From Rikenella sp. (GTDB lineage: Bacteria; Bacteroidota; Bacteroidia; Bacteroidales; Rikenellaceae), in contig JAFLSI010000002.1 of the NCBI GenBank assembly GCA_022511025.1, forward strand, positions 1 through 56,621: a stretch of DNA of 56,621 nt, written 5' to 3'. Each line of letters opens with the position of its first letter. Position 1 is the stretch's first letter. A program made the position numbers and the translations under genes. Shown in pieces: positions 5,128-54,337 of this stretch. The notes below the pieces were generated by a model. That model saw only the letters and a list, made by a program, of their open reading frames with translations. It searched no databases and was not told where the DNA came from.

Positions 5128-6114
5128 TCAGTCCAATACTACCAGTTCATACGTCTGACTCCCCAACCCGATCGCTTCGGCATGCTCCAACGTGTGCATG
5201 CCGTGGCGCGAGTCGATCCGTTCGATCAAATGGATCTTGCCGTGATCCTCGGATGCGCGCACCAAATCGGTGCATGCTTTGTCCAATGCCACCGGATCGA
5301 GCGAAGCCAATATCCCGATGTCGCCCATCTGAGGATCCTCCGGCGAGGAGTCGCAATCGCAATCGACGGACAAATTGTTGGCTACGCTGATATACAGAAT
5401 CCGGTCGCCGCAATGGTCGGCCACGGCTTTGGCCGCTTCGGCCATCGACTCCAAAAAGTCGTCCTGTTCCGGCAGGTTGTTCCACAGTTCGTCCGGATTC
5501 TTGATCTTGCCGGCCGTGTGGATCCAGGTCTTCCCCTCGGCCGAGGCGATCCCGATCGACATGTTCTTCACCGCTCCGCCGAAACCGCCCATCGCATGGC
5601 CCTTGAAATGCGACAGCACGATCGTGAAGTCGTAGTCCGGATAGCTCTTCCCGACATAATCCTCGGTCAGGTGCTTCCCGCCGGCAACCGGCAGGGCGAC
5701 CTCTCCCTCGGAATCCATAATGTCGACCGGAGCGATCGCTGTGAAGCCATGCTCCTCGGCCGCTTTCCGGTGGCTCTCCACATCGGAGCGCCGACCCTTG
5801 TAAGCGGTGTTGCATTCGACGATCGTCCCGTTCACTTTCTGCACCAAATCCTTGATGAGCACCGGTTGCAGGTAGTTGTGGCCGCCGGGTTCGCCGGTCG
5901 ACAGTTTCACGGCCACTTTGCCGGTGGCCTCGCGTCCCAATGCCTCGTAGATCTTCACGAGGTTTTCGGCCGAGATCTCTTTGAACAGGTAGACTTTAGC
6001 CGCTTTCGACTCGTCCGCCCCCTGTGCGCAAGAGAGGCTCAGGCCTGCCGCCGAAACGGCCAATCCGCAAGAAATCATAGTGATGATTTTTTTCATATCG
6101 GTCTGTTTTTTCAT
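5128..6114 (-). CDS. Exported DUF362 family protein
   Basis: A 328-residue protein with an N-terminal signal sequence (MKKQTDMKKIITMISCGLAV, cleavage or lipid-type Cys near SLSCAQG). An inner ATG at 6096 gives an equally good signal peptide. The body matches DUF362 proteins: VAVKLSTGEPGG near the start, IVLSHFKGHAMGGFGGA mid-protein, and DCDCDSSPEDPQMGDIGILA toward the C terminus. The family often has a ferredoxin partner or domain; none is present here, and the biochemical role is not established. It is the last gene of a minus-strand operon, starting 20 bases after the TonB receptor stop. Confidence 0.7.
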   Translation of the reverse strand: MKKQTDMKKIITMISCGLAVSAAGLSLSCAQGADESKAAKVYLFKEISAENLVKIYEALGREATGKVAVKLSTGEPGGHNYLQPVLIKDLVQKVNGTIVECNTAYKGRRSDVESHRKAAEEHGFTAIAPVDIMDSEGEVALPVAGGKHLTEDYVGKSYPDYDFTIVLSHFKGHAMGGFGGAVKNMSIGIASAEGKTWIHTAGKIKNPDELWNNLPEQDDFLESMAEAAKAVADHCGDRILYISVANNLSVDCDCDSSPEDPQMGDIGILASLDPVALDKACTDLVRASEDHGKIHLIERIDSRHGMHTLEHAEAIGLGSQTYELVVLD

Positions 6115-6134
6115 GGAATTATTCGTAGTAAGCC

Positions 6135-8027
6135 TCAAAAACTCAGATTCACCCCGGCCAGCACCGTCGCCCGCGGCATCGGAAACCCGGCGTTGATCTC
6201 ATAGCGTTGCGCCAGCAGATTTTCGCCCCGCGCCCAGAAGGTCAGCCAGTCCGTCGCCCGAAACGACGCCCGCAGGTTCCACAGGACGAAATCCTCCCGC
6301 TCGGCCGGCTCCAGCGACTTGTACAGCCCCGCCACATACTGCACCCCCGTCGAAACCGTCCAACGTCCCTTCGCCCAGTCGACACCGCCGTAGAGTTTGT
6401 GTTCCGGCGAGGCCAGCACCGGGTGTTCCATGTGCAGATAGCTGTAATTGGCCTCGACCGACCACTCGGACGAAATCCGGTAAGCGATCTGCGCCTCGGC
6501 CCCCGCATTCTCGACCCGCCCCGTATTGACATTCGTCGGCCGGCCGTCGACCGGCATCCGCATAATCAGATTTTCGCCGTCGATATAGAACAGATTCACT
6601 CCGTAAAACAGGCGCCCGTCGAGCAGCCGCTGCGCATAGGAGAGTTCGTAGCTCCACAGCCGTTCCGGTTTCAGGTCGGGATTGGCCGGACGGAACATGT
6701 ACATCTCGCGGATCGTCGGATAGCGAAATCCCTTCGCCGCCCGCAGTTTGATCTCCGCCCCGTGCGGCAGGGAGAACGACACCCCCGCCTGCGGCACCCA
6801 CTCCGTCCCGACATGCGAATGGTGGTCGATCCTCACCCCCGCATCCAAGGTCAGCCACGGCGCGACCGTCTGCCGAAAATCGACATACCCCGCCACCTCG
6901 TCCTGCATCTTGTCCACGAGCGGCTCGCACCGGCCGTCCAAGTAGCGGTTCCACGACCGGCCGCCGAAATGGAAATAGTCCGCCCCCACCGTCAGCCGGT
7001 TTCCCTCGAAGAGCCGGGCACTCTGGAACCACGACACGCCGAGCATCCGGTCTCGCGACAGGAAGCGGTAATCCAACGGCTCTCCTCCCGGATGGTACCC
7101 GTCGTCGATCCAGTGGTTCCCCCAGTTGGCGAAAAAACTCAGCGAACCGGAGGTGTGTCCGTAGTCATTCTCGACCGCCACCGATGCCATACCGCGCGTG
7201 ATCCGCTGGTCGTTGTCGATCAGCGGGTCGAAAATTTCGCCCGGATTCGAGGCGTTGAAATGGATCAAGTTCACATCGGCCAGCACGTTCCACGCCTCCG
7301 AAATCTCGTACCCCAACTTGGCATATCCGCCGTACTGCTCGAACCCCATATCGGCCCGGTGGCCGTCGGTCCGGTTGTACGAAGCGCCGACCACGCTGGA
7401 GAAGCGTCCTTTGCGAATCCGGTTGGTCGCTTCGCTCTGGAAGGTATTGAACGAGCCGTAACCCAACCGGGCATGGGTCCGCACTCCGTCCTCCTGCATC
7501 CGGCGCGTAACGATGTTGATCACGCCTCCCATCGCATTCGACCCGTACAGCGTGGAGGCCGGCCCCCGCACCACTTCGACCCGTTCGGCAAGCATCGACT
7601 GGCAAGCATCCGCAATCGGGTGCCCCATCAGCCCGGCATACTGGGGATGGCCGTCGACCAGCACCAACAGGCCGGTGGTCGGCACGCCCGCCTGCGACGC
7701 CCCGCCCACGCCGCGAACCGACATCTGACCGGCCGCTCCGCCCGACACGCCGTACCCCATGATCCCGCGTCCGGTAACGAACAGACCGGGCACCTGTTCC
7801 GTCAGCAGGGGCAGCAGCGACGGTTCGTTGCTGCGCTCGATCTTCGCCCGCCCCACCACCGACACGCTCATCGGCAGGAGGCGAACATCGGTCCGGTTGC
7901 GCGTCCCGGTAACCACCACCGTCTCGGCATCATACACCGGCCCTGCCGGCCGCAGCGAATCACCTTGCGCCGCTGCGAACCGGCAACCCGAACCGAGCAT
8001 CGCTCCGAGCAAAATCCATTTTTTCAT
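6135..8027 (-). CDS. TonB-dependent outer-membrane receptor
   Basis: A 630-residue outer-membrane transporter; start at MKKWILLGAML with signal peptide ending near FAAAQG. A TonB-box-like segment (AETVVVTGTRN) is followed by a plug domain (about 45-160) with LVLVDGHPQYAG and VEVVRGPASTLYGSNAMGG, then a 22-strand-type barrel ending in the terminal aromatic residue of outer-membrane proteins (VNLSF). It lacks the carboxypeptidase-like N-terminal extension of SusC-type receptors, so it resembles BtuB or siderophore receptors more than glycan importers. The substrate is not evident; there is no riboswitch upstream. It sits between a CMD-cupin protein and a DUF362 protein, suggesting import of a small molecule processed by neighbouring enzymes. 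Confidence 0.85.
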   Translation of the reverse strand: MKKWILLGAMLGSGCRFAAAQGDSLRPAGPVYDAETVVVTGTRNRTDVRLLPMSVSVVGRAKIERSNEPSLLPLLTEQVPGLFVTGRGIMGYGVSGGAAGQMSVRGVGGASQAGVPTTGLLVLVDGHPQYAGLMGHPIADACQSMLAERVEVVRGPASTLYGSNAMGGVINIVTRRMQEDGVRTHARLGYGSFNTFQSEATNRIRKGRFSSVVGASYNRTDGHRADMGFEQYGGYAKLGYEISEAWNVLADVNLIHFNASNPGEIFDPLIDNDQRITRGMASVAVENDYGHTSGSLSFFANWGNHWIDDGYHPGGEPLDYRFLSRDRMLGVSWFQSARLFEGNRLTVGADYFHFGGRSWNRYLDGRCEPLVDKMQDEVAGYVDFRQTVAPWLTLDAGVRIDHHSHVGTEWVPQAGVSFSLPHGAEIKLRAAKGFRYPTIREMYMFRPANPDLKPERLWSYELSYAQRLLDGRLFYGVNLFYIDGENLIMRMPVDGRPTNVNTGRVENAGAEAQIAYRISSEWSVEANYSYLHMEHPVLASPEHKLYGGVDWAKGRWTVSTGVQYVAGLYKSLEPAEREDFVLWNLRASFRATDWLTFWARGENLLAQRYEINAGFPMPRATVLAGVNLSF

Positions 8028-50641: not shown

Positions 50642-51744
50642 CGACACTCCTGAGACACTTTCGGTTGCAGATCATCGACCGGTACATCATGCGCCGGTTT
50701 CTGGGGACCTATCTGTTCGCCATCGCGTTGATTATCGTCATTGTCGTAATCTTCGACGCCGCCGAAAAGATCGACGACTTTCTCGAAGGACACGCCCCCT
50801 TCTCGGAGATCATACTGGGCTATTACGTCAACTTCATCCCCTACTTCGTCAACCAGTTCAGCGGACTGTTCACTTTCATCGCCGTGATCTTCTTCACCTC
50901 GAAAATGGCCTACAACACCGAGATCATCGCCATTCTGTCGAGCGGAGTCAGTTTCCGGCGGATGATGTGGCCCTACTTCGTCTCCTCCCTGCTGATCACG
51001 CTGCTCAGCCTGAGCCTCAACCTCTTTCTGATTCCGGAAGCCAATGCCCGGCGGTTGGCGTTCGAGGCCAAATACATGGGCAAGCACAAATCGAACTACG
51101 AAGCGCACATCTACCGGCAGCTCGAACCGGGTACGTTCGTCTATATCCGCGGTTTCCAGGGGCAGTCGAAAATGGCCGAATTTCTCGCCATCGAATCGTA
51201 CGAAGGGGGGAGCATCGTCAGCTCGCTCGAAACGCAGAACGCCCGGTTCGACACGCTGACCGGCCGCTGGCGGGCGCCGAAATACATGATCCGGCGCTAC
51301 GAGGGGGAACACGAGATGCTGACCAAGTACATGACCCCGCTGGATACGTTGGTGAACCTCTCGGCAGACGAACTGGGCCGGACGCAGGACCTGGTGCAGA
51401 CGATGAACTCGGTGAAACTGAGCCGTTTCATCCGGCAGCAGCAGAAAAAGGGGTCGGACATGGTGCCGCTCTTTCAGGTCGAAGCCTATTCGCGGTGGGC
51501 CTATCCGATTTCGACCTTCGTACTGACACTGATCGGCGTGTCGCTCTCGTCGCGGAAAGTGCGCGGCGGAACGGGGCTGCACATCGGCGTGGGGATCGCG
51601 CTCTGTTTCACTTACATCGTCCTGATGCGCTTCACGGGCGAGTTCGCCAAAGGGGGATTGATGCCGCCGGTGGTGGCGATCTGGCTGCCGAACATCATCT
51701 ACGCAGCAGTCGGGGTCTATCTCTACCAAAAGGCACCGAAATAG
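50638..51744 (+). CDS. LptF/LptG family LPS export permease
   Basis: A 368-residue inner-membrane protein. Three transmembrane helices at the N terminus (IMRRFLGTYLFAIALIIVIV; VNQFSGLFTFIAVIFFTS; YFVSSLLITLLSLSLNLFLI), a ~170-residue periplasmic beta-jellyroll, and three C-terminal helices (AYPISTFVLTLIGVSLSS and on). RKVRGGTGLHIGVGIA is the family motif near TM5. It belongs to the LptBFG exporter of LPS. The start overlaps the tgt stop codon, so the two are coupled. Confidence 0.9.
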   Translation: MTTLLRHFRLQIIDRYIMRRFLGTYLFAIALIIVIVVIFDAAEKIDDFLEGHAPFSEIILGYYVNFIPYFVNQFSGLFTFIAVIFFTSKMAYNTEIIAILSSGVSFRRMMWPYFVSSLLITLLSLSLNLFLIPEANARRLAFEAKYMGKHKSNYEAHIYRQLEPGTFVYIRGFQGQSKMAEFLAIESYEGGSIVSSLETQNARFDTLTGRWRAPKYMIRRYEGEHEMLTKYMTPLDTLVNLSADELGRTQDLVQTMNSVKLSRFIRQQQKKGSDMVPLFQVEAYSRWAYPISTFVLTLIGVSLSSRKVRGGTGLHIGVGIALCFTYIVLMRFTGEFAKGGLMPPVVAIWLPNIIYAAVGVYLYQKAPK

Positions 51745-51761: not shown

Positions 51762-51832
51762 TGTCAAAAAATCAGACACCGAACGTCTAAGAATTAGACA
51801 CTCACGGTGCCGCCAATAGACCCGCAACAGAC
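51762..51832 (+). promoter_or_regulatory. Phased dyad array, predicted enhancer sites
   Basis: Two dyads of form GTC-N9-GAC lie at 51763-51777 and 51785-51799, exactly 22 bases apart, and agree at 13 of 17 positions. Further AGAC half-sites occur at 51818-51821 (22 bases on) and 51829-51832 (11 bases on), so all face one side of the helix. The array lies 40-95 bases upstream of the sigma-54-like promoter. Confidence 0.5.
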
Positions 51833-51855
51833 TCATTCCAAACCGGTTATCCGTT

Positions 51856-51872
51856 TAGGCATAAAATTTGCG
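51856..51872 (+). promoter_or_regulatory. Sigma-54-type promoter
   Basis: AGGCAT followed by TTTGCG with GG at 51858-51859 and GC at 51870-51871, exactly ten bases between, as in -24/-12 promoters. No TAnnTTTG element is seen in the gap. The start codon of the permease is 39 bases downstream. Confidence 0.55.
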
Positions 51873-51910
51873 AAAAACGGAGAGCAAAAACCAACCTCTC
51901 CCCTGTCGAC

Positions 51911-54337
51911 ATGTTCGGAAACTACCTGCTGCTGGCCTTTCGTCATTTGAAACGTCAAAAACTGTTCAGCATCGTCAACACCCTCTCGTTGGCCCTCGGC
52001 ATGGCCGTGGCGCTGCTGATTTTGAACTACGTCGTTTTCGAGCAAAGCTACGACTCGATGCACCCGGCCAAAGAGCGGCTGTACCGCGTCGAGAGCCGCT
52101 TCTACGAAGGCGAGGAGCTGACCGACGACTGGGCCACCTCCTCCTACGGCTACGGCCCCGCCATGAAACGCTCCATTCCCGGCGTCGAACAATTCGTCCG
52201 CTTCGACATCAACAACCCCGAACAGATCGTCCGCTACAACGACCGCTGTTCGCGCGAAAACAGCATTACCGCAGCCGATCCGTCGATGTTCGAACTGTTC
52301 GGGTTCCGCCTGCAGGCGGGCGACCCCGACCGCGCATTAGCCGGACCGAACAAAGTCGTCATCACCCCGTATGCCGCCTCCAAATACTTTCCGAAGGGCG
52401 AAGACCCACTGGGGAAAACCCTGCGTTTCAACTCCCTGAACGGCGAACTGCACTGCGAAGTAACCGGCATTTTGGAAGAGCTGCCCCGAAACACCCACCT
52501 CCGTTTCGACTTTTTCATCTCCTGGGAGACCCTCCCCCGGTGGATCGACGAATTTTGGTACCGCCACGAAGCCTACACCTACGTCCGCTTAGCACCGGGC
52601 GTCGACCCGCGGCAAGTCGAAGCCCTCTTTCCCGATCTCGCCGAAAGCTACAAGACCGAAGAGGCCCTCCGGAACAAAACCTGGAAGATCGTTCTGAACC
52701 CCGTGGAAGCGATCCACCTGACCCCGTGGAAACAATACGAACGCGAAGCGAAAGGGAGCCGGAACGCCGTCGACATCCTGATTCTCGTTGCGTGGGCCAT
52801 GCTGATCATCGCCTGGATCAATTCCATCAACCTCTCCACCATCCGGTCGCTCGACCGGGCCCGCGAAGTGGGCATCCGGAAAGTATCGGGCGGCACGCGG
52901 CGGCAGCTGACCGGCCAATTCCTGCTCGAATCGGCCCTCGTCAATCTGCTGGCCCTGTGGATCGCGATCGGCCTCGTTGCGCTTTTCGGACCGTGGCTCG
53001 ACCGGCTGATCGGTCAGGAGGTCGGCTTCATCCTGTCCGACCGGCCGATCTTTTGGGTCGCGGCGACCGGCCTTTTCCTCCTCGGCATTCTCCTTTCGGG
53101 CTTCTATCCCGCCTTCATCCTCTCGAACACCCCTCCTGCCGCCGTACTGAAAGGAAAATACATCCACACGGCCCAAGCCGGCTCGCTGCGCAAAACGCTC
53201 GTCGTCGTGCAATTCACCGCCGCCTTAGTGCTCCTCGCCGGCACCTTCGCCGTCGACCGGCAGTCGGCCTACATGCGCCGCCAGCCGTTAGGGATGAACA
53301 TCGGGCAGGTATTCGCCATCCGATACCCCGGATCGACCGACGCGATAGAGAGCAAAATCGAAGCCTACAAACAGGAGCTGAAAAATATTCGCGGCGTGGA
53401 ACAGGTCTCGCTGTCGGGTGCCGTACCGGGGATGGAGGTAGCCACGTTCCTCTCCAACCGGCTGACCGGCGACATCGCCCGACAGAACCGGCTGTACGAA
53501 ATGTTGGTCGTCGACGACGACTACCTCGCGACCTACGGCCTCCGGGTGATTGCCGGCCGCGGGTTCGGCCGGGCATTCACCGGCGACGAGAACCGGATGG
53601 TGGTCAACGAAGCCGCCGTCCGCGCTTTGGGATTCACCTCGCCCGACGAAGCGATCGGGAAACGGGTAACGGTCGAGACGCGCGAAGACCGGCCGATGGA
53701 AATCGTCGGCGTTCTGGCCGACTTTCACCAGCAGGGGCTGAACAACCCCTACACCCCGATCATGGCGATCCGCGAAAGCGCCATCGACTGGCTGCCGCGG
53801 CGCTTCATCTCGGTTCGTTTCTCGGCCGGCACCCCGATCGACGATCTGCTGCACGAAGCCGAACGGCGGTGGACGAAGTTTTTCCCCGATGCACCTTTCG
53901 ACCGCTTTTTCGTAGACCGTTTTTACGACCGGCAGTACGCTGCCGACAAACGTTTCGGCCGCGTATTCGCCCTCTTTGCCGCCCTGACACTCTTCATCGC
54001 AGTCGTGGGGCTGTGGGTGCTGACCCTGTTCGCAGCCAACCGCCGGCGCAAAGAGATGGGCATCCGCAAGGTATTCGGCGCAACCGGCCGGAAACTGTTC
54101 GGCTGTTTGTCGGCCGAGTTTTGCTACCTGACGGCGGCCGCCGTCGTCATCGGCCTCCCGATCGCGTGGTATGTCATGAAGAGCTGGCTGGCCCGCTACC
54201 CGTTCCGGGTGGAGCTTTCGTGGTGGCTGTTCGCGGTTCCGGCGGCGGCGATCGTCGCGATCACGCTGGCGACGGTGGGCGGACAAATCTGGATCACGCT
54301 GCGCACAGATCCGATCCGGTCGCTGAAACACGAATAA
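51911..54337 (+). CDS. FtsX-like ABC transporter permease (MacB/FtsX domain type)
   Basis: An 808-residue permease with two copies of the MacB periplasmic-core plus FtsX unit. The N terminus NYLLLAFRHLKRQKLFSIVN is typical. TM1 is near residue 25 and the periplasmic core spans about 45-270. The first FtsX helices are near 290, 345 and 390; the second unit begins with LRKTLVVVQFTAALVLLAG near 430. The last helices are near 690, 735 and 775, and the end reads TDPIRSLKHE. It needs a separate ATPase, not found here. In Bacteroidetes such permeases are often under sigma-54 response regulators, in keeping with the promoter and dyad array upstream. Substrate unknown. Confidence 0.87.
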   Translation: MFGNYLLLAFRHLKRQKLFSIVNTLSLALGMAVALLILNYVVFEQSYDSMHPAKERLYRVESRFYEGEELTDDWATSSYGYGPAMKRSIPGVEQFVRFDINNPEQIVRYNDRCSRENSITAADPSMFELFGFRLQAGDPDRALAGPNKVVITPYAASKYFPKGEDPLGKTLRFNSLNGELHCEVTGILEELPRNTHLRFDFFISWETLPRWIDEFWYRHEAYTYVRLAPGVDPRQVEALFPDLAESYKTEEALRNKTWKIVLNPVEAIHLTPWKQYEREAKGSRNAVDILILVAWAMLIIAWINSINLSTIRSLDRAREVGIRKVSGGTRRQLTGQFLLESALVNLLALWIAIGLVALFGPWLDRLIGQEVGFILSDRPIFWVAATGLFLLGILLSGFYPAFILSNTPPAAVLKGKYIHTAQAGSLRKTLVVVQFTAALVLLAGTFAVDRQSAYMRRQPLGMNIGQVFAIRYPGSTDAIESKIEAYKQELKNIRGVEQVSLSGAVPGMEVATFLSNRLTGDIARQNRLYEMLVVDDDYLATYGLRVIAGRGFGRAFTGDENRMVVNEAAVRALGFTSPDEAIGKRVTVETREDRPMEIVGVLADFHQQGLNNPYTPIMAIRESAIDWLPRRFISVRFSAGTPIDDLLHEAERRWTKFFPDAPFDRFFVDRFYDRQYAADKRFGRVFALFAALTLFIAVVGLWVLTLFAANRRRKEMGIRKVFGATGRKLFGCLSAEFCYLTAAAVVIGLPIAWYVMKSWLARYPFRVELSWWLFAVPAAAIVAITLATVGGQIWITLRTDPIRSLKHE

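Follow-up and report, generated by a model that had tools for sequence, protein, structure and literature searches.

Sigma-54 promoters served by an upstream enhancer and an IHF site form a textbook class of regulatory DNA (PMC4740811; PMC3897727). Among the described members, the orp operons of Desulfovibrio resemble the locus studied here in their tandem palindromic activator sites, their -24/-12 promoter and their NtrC-type activator. Their IHF sites lie at -42/-43, between enhancer and promoter (PMC3897727), and a degenerate IHF-like site lies at about -45 here. The sigma-54 regulome of Desulfovibrio vulgaris offers a second parallel, in that activator sites were inferred comparatively upstream of sigma-54 promoters. 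However, the site-to-promoter distances in that organism vary widely, being mostly within 100 nt but in some cases over 300 nt, and some sites lie downstream (PMC4641369).

In the Bacteroidia, passages of a 2025 paper (PMC12316311) predict sigma-54 -24/-12 promoters for COG0577 (FtsX-like) permeases and call this first evidence; for these permease genes, the same passages give no activator-binding sites, cognate regulator, bend site or geometry. A literature search that covered few subscription journals found no prior description of the enhancer sites or their regulator, none of the bend site and fixed geometry reported below, and no paper on a Bacteroides host factor. The main text of a B. 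fragilis bile-fitness study holds nothing on these genes. As for the gene products, the permease, adaptor, ATPase and TolC parts match those of MacAB-TolC, of the DarBCD (darobactin) exporters and of the ADOP duplicated permeases. However, all of them score under the curated cut-offs of ADOP and Dar, and the parts here are scattered over three loci.

The array upstream of the permease gene

In the window, by which we mean the whole 56,621-nucleotide stretch of Rikenella DNA that was analysed, the array sits between the stop codon of an LptF/LptG-family gene, at 51744, and a permease gene that starts at 51911. The sequence-only reading had described GTC-N9-GAC dyads repeated every 22 bases, and we confirmed two of them. 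The upstream dyad (TGTCAAAAAATCAGACA, 51762..51778, forward strand) has its core at 51763-51777 (GTCAAAAAATCAGAC). The downstream dyad (CGTCTAAGAATTAGACA, 51784..51800, forward strand) follows exactly 22 bp later, with its core at 51785-51799 (GTCTAAGAATTAGAC). Both are predicted activator sites; the upstream one matches the R1 model, and its extended form, TGTC-N9-GACA, is kept in same-genus orthologues and paralogues. Across the Bacteroidales the dyad spacing is 22 bp and sometimes 21 bp.

The GG-N10-GC promoter that had been read downstream of the dyads is likewise present, at 51858-51871 (GG at 51858-51859, GC at 51870-51871), within a sigma-54 element (AGGCATAAAATTTGCG, 51857..51872, forward strand) that is kept in orthologues. 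Transcription is expected to start 24 bp after the GG, near 51883; relative to this start, the dyads are centred at about -113 and -91. Two further AGAC half-sites had been assigned to the array at offsets of +22 and +11. Their GAC triplets do occur, at 51819 and 51830 respectively (span 51819..51832, forward strand), but they are not conserved, since GAC is found at each of these offsets in only one of 91 related arrays. We therefore rejected them as parts of the array; they are probably chance matches.

The gene that follows (51911..54337, forward strand) encodes an 808-aa duplicated MacB_PCD/FtsX permease in which each Pfam domain occurs in two stretches (PF12704, MacB_PCD, 132.5 bits; PF02687, FtsX, 89.7 bits; both above the gathering cut-offs). 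Its closest NCBIfam model is ADOP (TIGR03434), at 270.3 bits against a curated cut-off of 622.3, and the DarB darobactin export permease model (NF038008) gave 80.1 bits against a curated cut-off of 700. The next genes belong to the inositol-monophosphatase and arginase families, so that the permease has no adjoining ATPase gene.

We also examined eight genomes of the same genus, including G002 (Millionella massiliensis) and G003 (Rikenella microfusus), the names being assigned by shared array sequences. All five permease orthologues found there (69-76% identity) carry the array with both full dyads and the promoter conserved; the -24/-12 element is good and in the same place in four of the five, with a weak match in R. 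microfusus. Many paralogous permeases carry the array, as does the ATPase gene. In one R. microfusus locus (L150), TolC, HlyD and ATPase genes lie within 8 kb, with a separate array before each. As a separate observation, a reversed control pattern, ACAG-N9-CTGT-N5-ACAG-N9-CTGT, occurs exactly once in each of the eight genomes, which suggests that it is an unrelated conserved element.

The pattern could have arisen by chance or from base composition, as AT-rich intergenic DNA with repeated half-sites, and the two extra half-sites do lack conservation. However, an independent model trained on other genomes only gives the array stretch 41.6 bits, with E = 2.1e-10 when its own genome is searched, and the array is conserved in all five permease orthologues found. 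The comparative data refute this explanation, and we give it practically no weight.

Further arrays, rpoN and a candidate regulator

The sequence-only reading had staked itself on further sites and an rpoN gene in the genome, and both were found. The genome is a Rikenella-type metagenome-assembled genome of 1.87 Mb in 207 contigs, and its rpoN (PF04552, 182.7 bits) lies on G000:C144. The exact tandem GTC-N9-GAC-N7-GTC-N9-GAC occurs in two places in these 1.87 Mb, namely in the window and on contig C178. Tandem matches with one mismatch were dismissed, because there were 13 on the forward strand in all compared with eight in the control. Searching with the strict pattern alone left arrays in other genera undetected; therefore, we built a sequence model of 114 positions from 68 sites, none of them from this genome. 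In the genome of the window, this model detects three full arrays and no more, with E-values of 7e-14, 2e-10 and 3e-9.

The array on C178 is upstream of an ABC ATPase gene and is followed by TGGCACGATTTCGGTA. The third array, on C13, has 21-bp spacing and TGGCACGCCCCTTGTG, and lies ahead of a TolC-FtsX-HlyD operon. This operon is divergent from the genes for an NtrC-type response regulator and a histidine kinase.

A cognate response regulator had been proposed as something to look for, and the protein encoded on C13, beside a copy of the array, is a credible NtrC-type candidate. The genome gave five matches to the sigma-54-activator domain, three of them strong and full-domain. Of these three true activators, only the C13 protein combines a receiver with a Fis-type HTH (Response_reg, Sigma54_activat and HTH_8, that is, REC-AAA+-Fis HTH). 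Its sigma-54 contact loop is GAFTDA, as in 28 of 30 orthologue loci, and GAFTDA is listed as an active variant (PMC4641369). The recognition end of the HTH is nearly constant among the regulator orthologues (GITRQTLYNKIKKYGL). Another NtrC-type protein (G000:C141; L001, about 5900-7100) has a receiver and an AAA+ domain, with no DNA-binding domain detected. The activator on C35 has an HTH and lacks a receiver, being a one-component protein. We consider these two unlikely as the cognate regulator, given the undetected HTH of the former and the missing receiver of the latter.

Next, we compared where the array and the regulator occur across 81 genomes of this family, counting as regulator orthologues those that scored at least 430 bits (the next group drops to 342). 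Both were present in 29 genomes, the array only in three, the regulator only in five and neither in 44. The co-occurrence gave a Fisher p of 1.3e-13, a value inflated by shared ancestry and by arrays that adjoin the regulator gene. At many regulator loci, an array lies within 1.5 kb, upstream of TolC.

It is also conceivable that the arrays are sigma-54 enhancers bound in the organism of the window by a different activator, either another NtrC-family protein or several. A 99%-complete genome (G045) has three good arrays (L259, L260 and L261) and lacks an orthologue of the C13-type regulator, and several NtrC-type proteins occur per genome. However, of the other two true activators here, one is a receiver protein with no HTH detected and the other is a one-component protein, and the arrays adjoin the C13-type regulator in many orthologues and a related regulator in Proteobacteria. 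We regard a different activator as improbable. Our reading from sequence comparison is that the window very probably holds a sigma-54 promoter whose two-site enhancer serves an NtrC-family response regulator, as part of a switch for exporter genes.

Array-to-promoter geometry and a putative bend site

To cover a wider range of species, we scanned GTDB genomes for the array followed by TGGCA-N8-G, leaving the gap free over 40-70 nt. The matches listed include Rikenella, Alistipes, Millionella, Bacteroides, Phocaeicola, Parabacteroides, Prevotella and other Bacteroidales, and also a GC-rich group in the Burkholderiales and Acetobacteraceae. In Parabacteroides distasonis, an array (L105) precedes an FtsX permease gene. 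Pooling the matches listed from all searches gave 102 AT-rich sites, of which 88 lead into TolC, FtsX, HlyD or ATPase genes by BLAST; two of the remaining 14 lead into TolC-like genes by eye. On the basis of these predicted sites, the array would define a shared exporter regulon across gut Bacteroidales.

Some arrays of the Rikenella group (L061, L062, L065, L190 and L201) stand before exported, non-exporter proteins that look GIN/DUF2807-like by eye. Several of these genes start 240-440 nt downstream of the promoter, which implies a long leader. The GC-rich arrays (L102, L109, L122, L130, L135, L161, L167, L174 and similar) have 22-bp spacing and a gap of 51-53 nt. They adjoin a related NtrC-type regulator (34-44% identity) and usually a kinase, and the gene downstream of them encodes a small periplasmic protein in which the motif NPxGxxDGxxLxDGxxxxxPP is repeated. 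This looks like a separate regulon with the same geometry.

Textbook sigma-54 enhancers tolerate loose spacing. Among the matches listed, nearly all public Bacteroidales sites had 52-55 nt between the array and the -24 element. Given that the public scan was restricted to 40-70 nt, the distance was retested on 52 arrays found without any promoter requirement, for each of which we took the best-matching sigma-54-like 16-mer at a distance of 10-184 nt to either side. The fixed distance held, as the best site was 53-56 nt downstream in 48 of the 52 arrays; of the other four, two had a match at 55 that equalled or nearly equalled the best, one had a weak match at 54 and one had none. Rare gaps of 43, 63 and 66 nt, seen in few cases, are about one helical turn off the norm of 52-56 nt, and the 66-nt case (L058) also has a near-equal match at 55.

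These distances bear on whether the dyads could instead be operators of an ordinary repressor or of a sigma-70-type activator, with an incidental GG-N10-GC match. Palindromic TGTC-N9-GACA sites do also serve regulators other than those of the NtrC type. However, TGGCA-N8-G stands at one fixed downstream distance in nearly every array, and the GG and the G of GG-N10-G do not vary across an alignment of 68 related sites, many of which were found with the TGGCA requirement. In addition, TAnnTTTG, the primary Bacteroidetes -7 box, does not fall in register at this locus by eye. An ordinary operator is thus very unlikely, and we retain the sigma-54 enhancer as the preferred reading.

When 91 sites were anchored on the promoter, the spacer between array and promoter showed conserved columns of the form AA-N4-YTGATWWATCAR-N4-TT. 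Allowing up to one mismatch, the IHF consensus (WATCAANNNNTTR) was present in 33 of the 91 spacers, where 5.2 were expected, and these matches gather at a single position. The frequencies of the spacer columns are reverse-complement symmetric (r = 0.87), with the centre of symmetry 19.5 nt ahead of the -24 element; other centres give 0.17-0.71. On the strength of this information profile, the consensus count and the symmetry, we assign a putative IHF/HU-like bend site to 51826..51849 in the window, centred some 45 bp before the expected start. The window copy is degenerate, yet it scores above 98.8% of its own shuffles (empirical P 0.012). The E. coli IHF consensus is one-sided, whereas the bend site of this array family is symmetric. 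Two HU/IHF-family genes are present in the genome, and we infer that a homodimeric protein would favour a symmetric bend site.

Proposed mechanism and significance

The earlier proposal of an NtrC-type activator array with a sigma-54 promoter before the FtsX-like permease is supported by the rpoN gene, the further arrays and the linked NtrC-type regulator, although it overlooked the conserved IHF-like palindrome and the fixed array-to-promoter distance. We regard the array as probably a further case of the known enhancer/IHF/sigma-54 class, and the fixed geometry could make it a variant. Compared with NtrC-, ZraR- and AtoC-class enhancers with IHF, the distances here are nearly fixed over many genes and across an order, and the binding is predicted.

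We propose that an envelope or antimicrobial-type signal would activate the histidine kinase encoded on C13, which may then phosphorylate the adjoining response regulator. Dimers of the regulator would sit next to each other on one helical face, at the two TGTC-N9-GACA dyads (about -113 and -91), and, as is usual for its family, the protein would oligomerise through its AAA+ domain. An IHF/HU-type protein may bend the spacer at about -45, as the conserved palindrome suggests, and the bent DNA would bring the AAA+ ring onto the sigma-54 polymerase at the -24/-12 element, where ATP hydrolysis would open the promoter. In this way, one switch could control three scattered units, namely the orphan permease of the window, the ABC ATPase and the TolC-FtsX-HlyD operon, which would jointly supply the parts of a MacAB-TolC-like or DarBCD-like exporter in step. 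More tentatively, and with doubt outweighing confidence, the Bacteroidales sigma-54 enhancer may be a fixed-geometry complex, in which two activator dimers, a symmetric bend site for a homodimeric HU/IHF-type protein and the promoter hold set rotational positions, the distance shifts by whole helical turns only, and one regulator drives the whole exporter set of the cell.

For the Bacteroidales, a dominant gut order, these predictions would provide a defined sigma-54 regulon with a searchable signature. Scattered exporter parts, including orphan permeases, a lone ATPase, TolC and an adaptor, would be tied together through one regulator. Dozens of natural promoters with a distance kept within a few bases and a symmetric bend site would also form a set for studying the helical-phase dependence of short enhancer loops. 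Should the exporters turn out to act on antimicrobial peptides or bile compounds, the array would flag the genes that respond to this stress.
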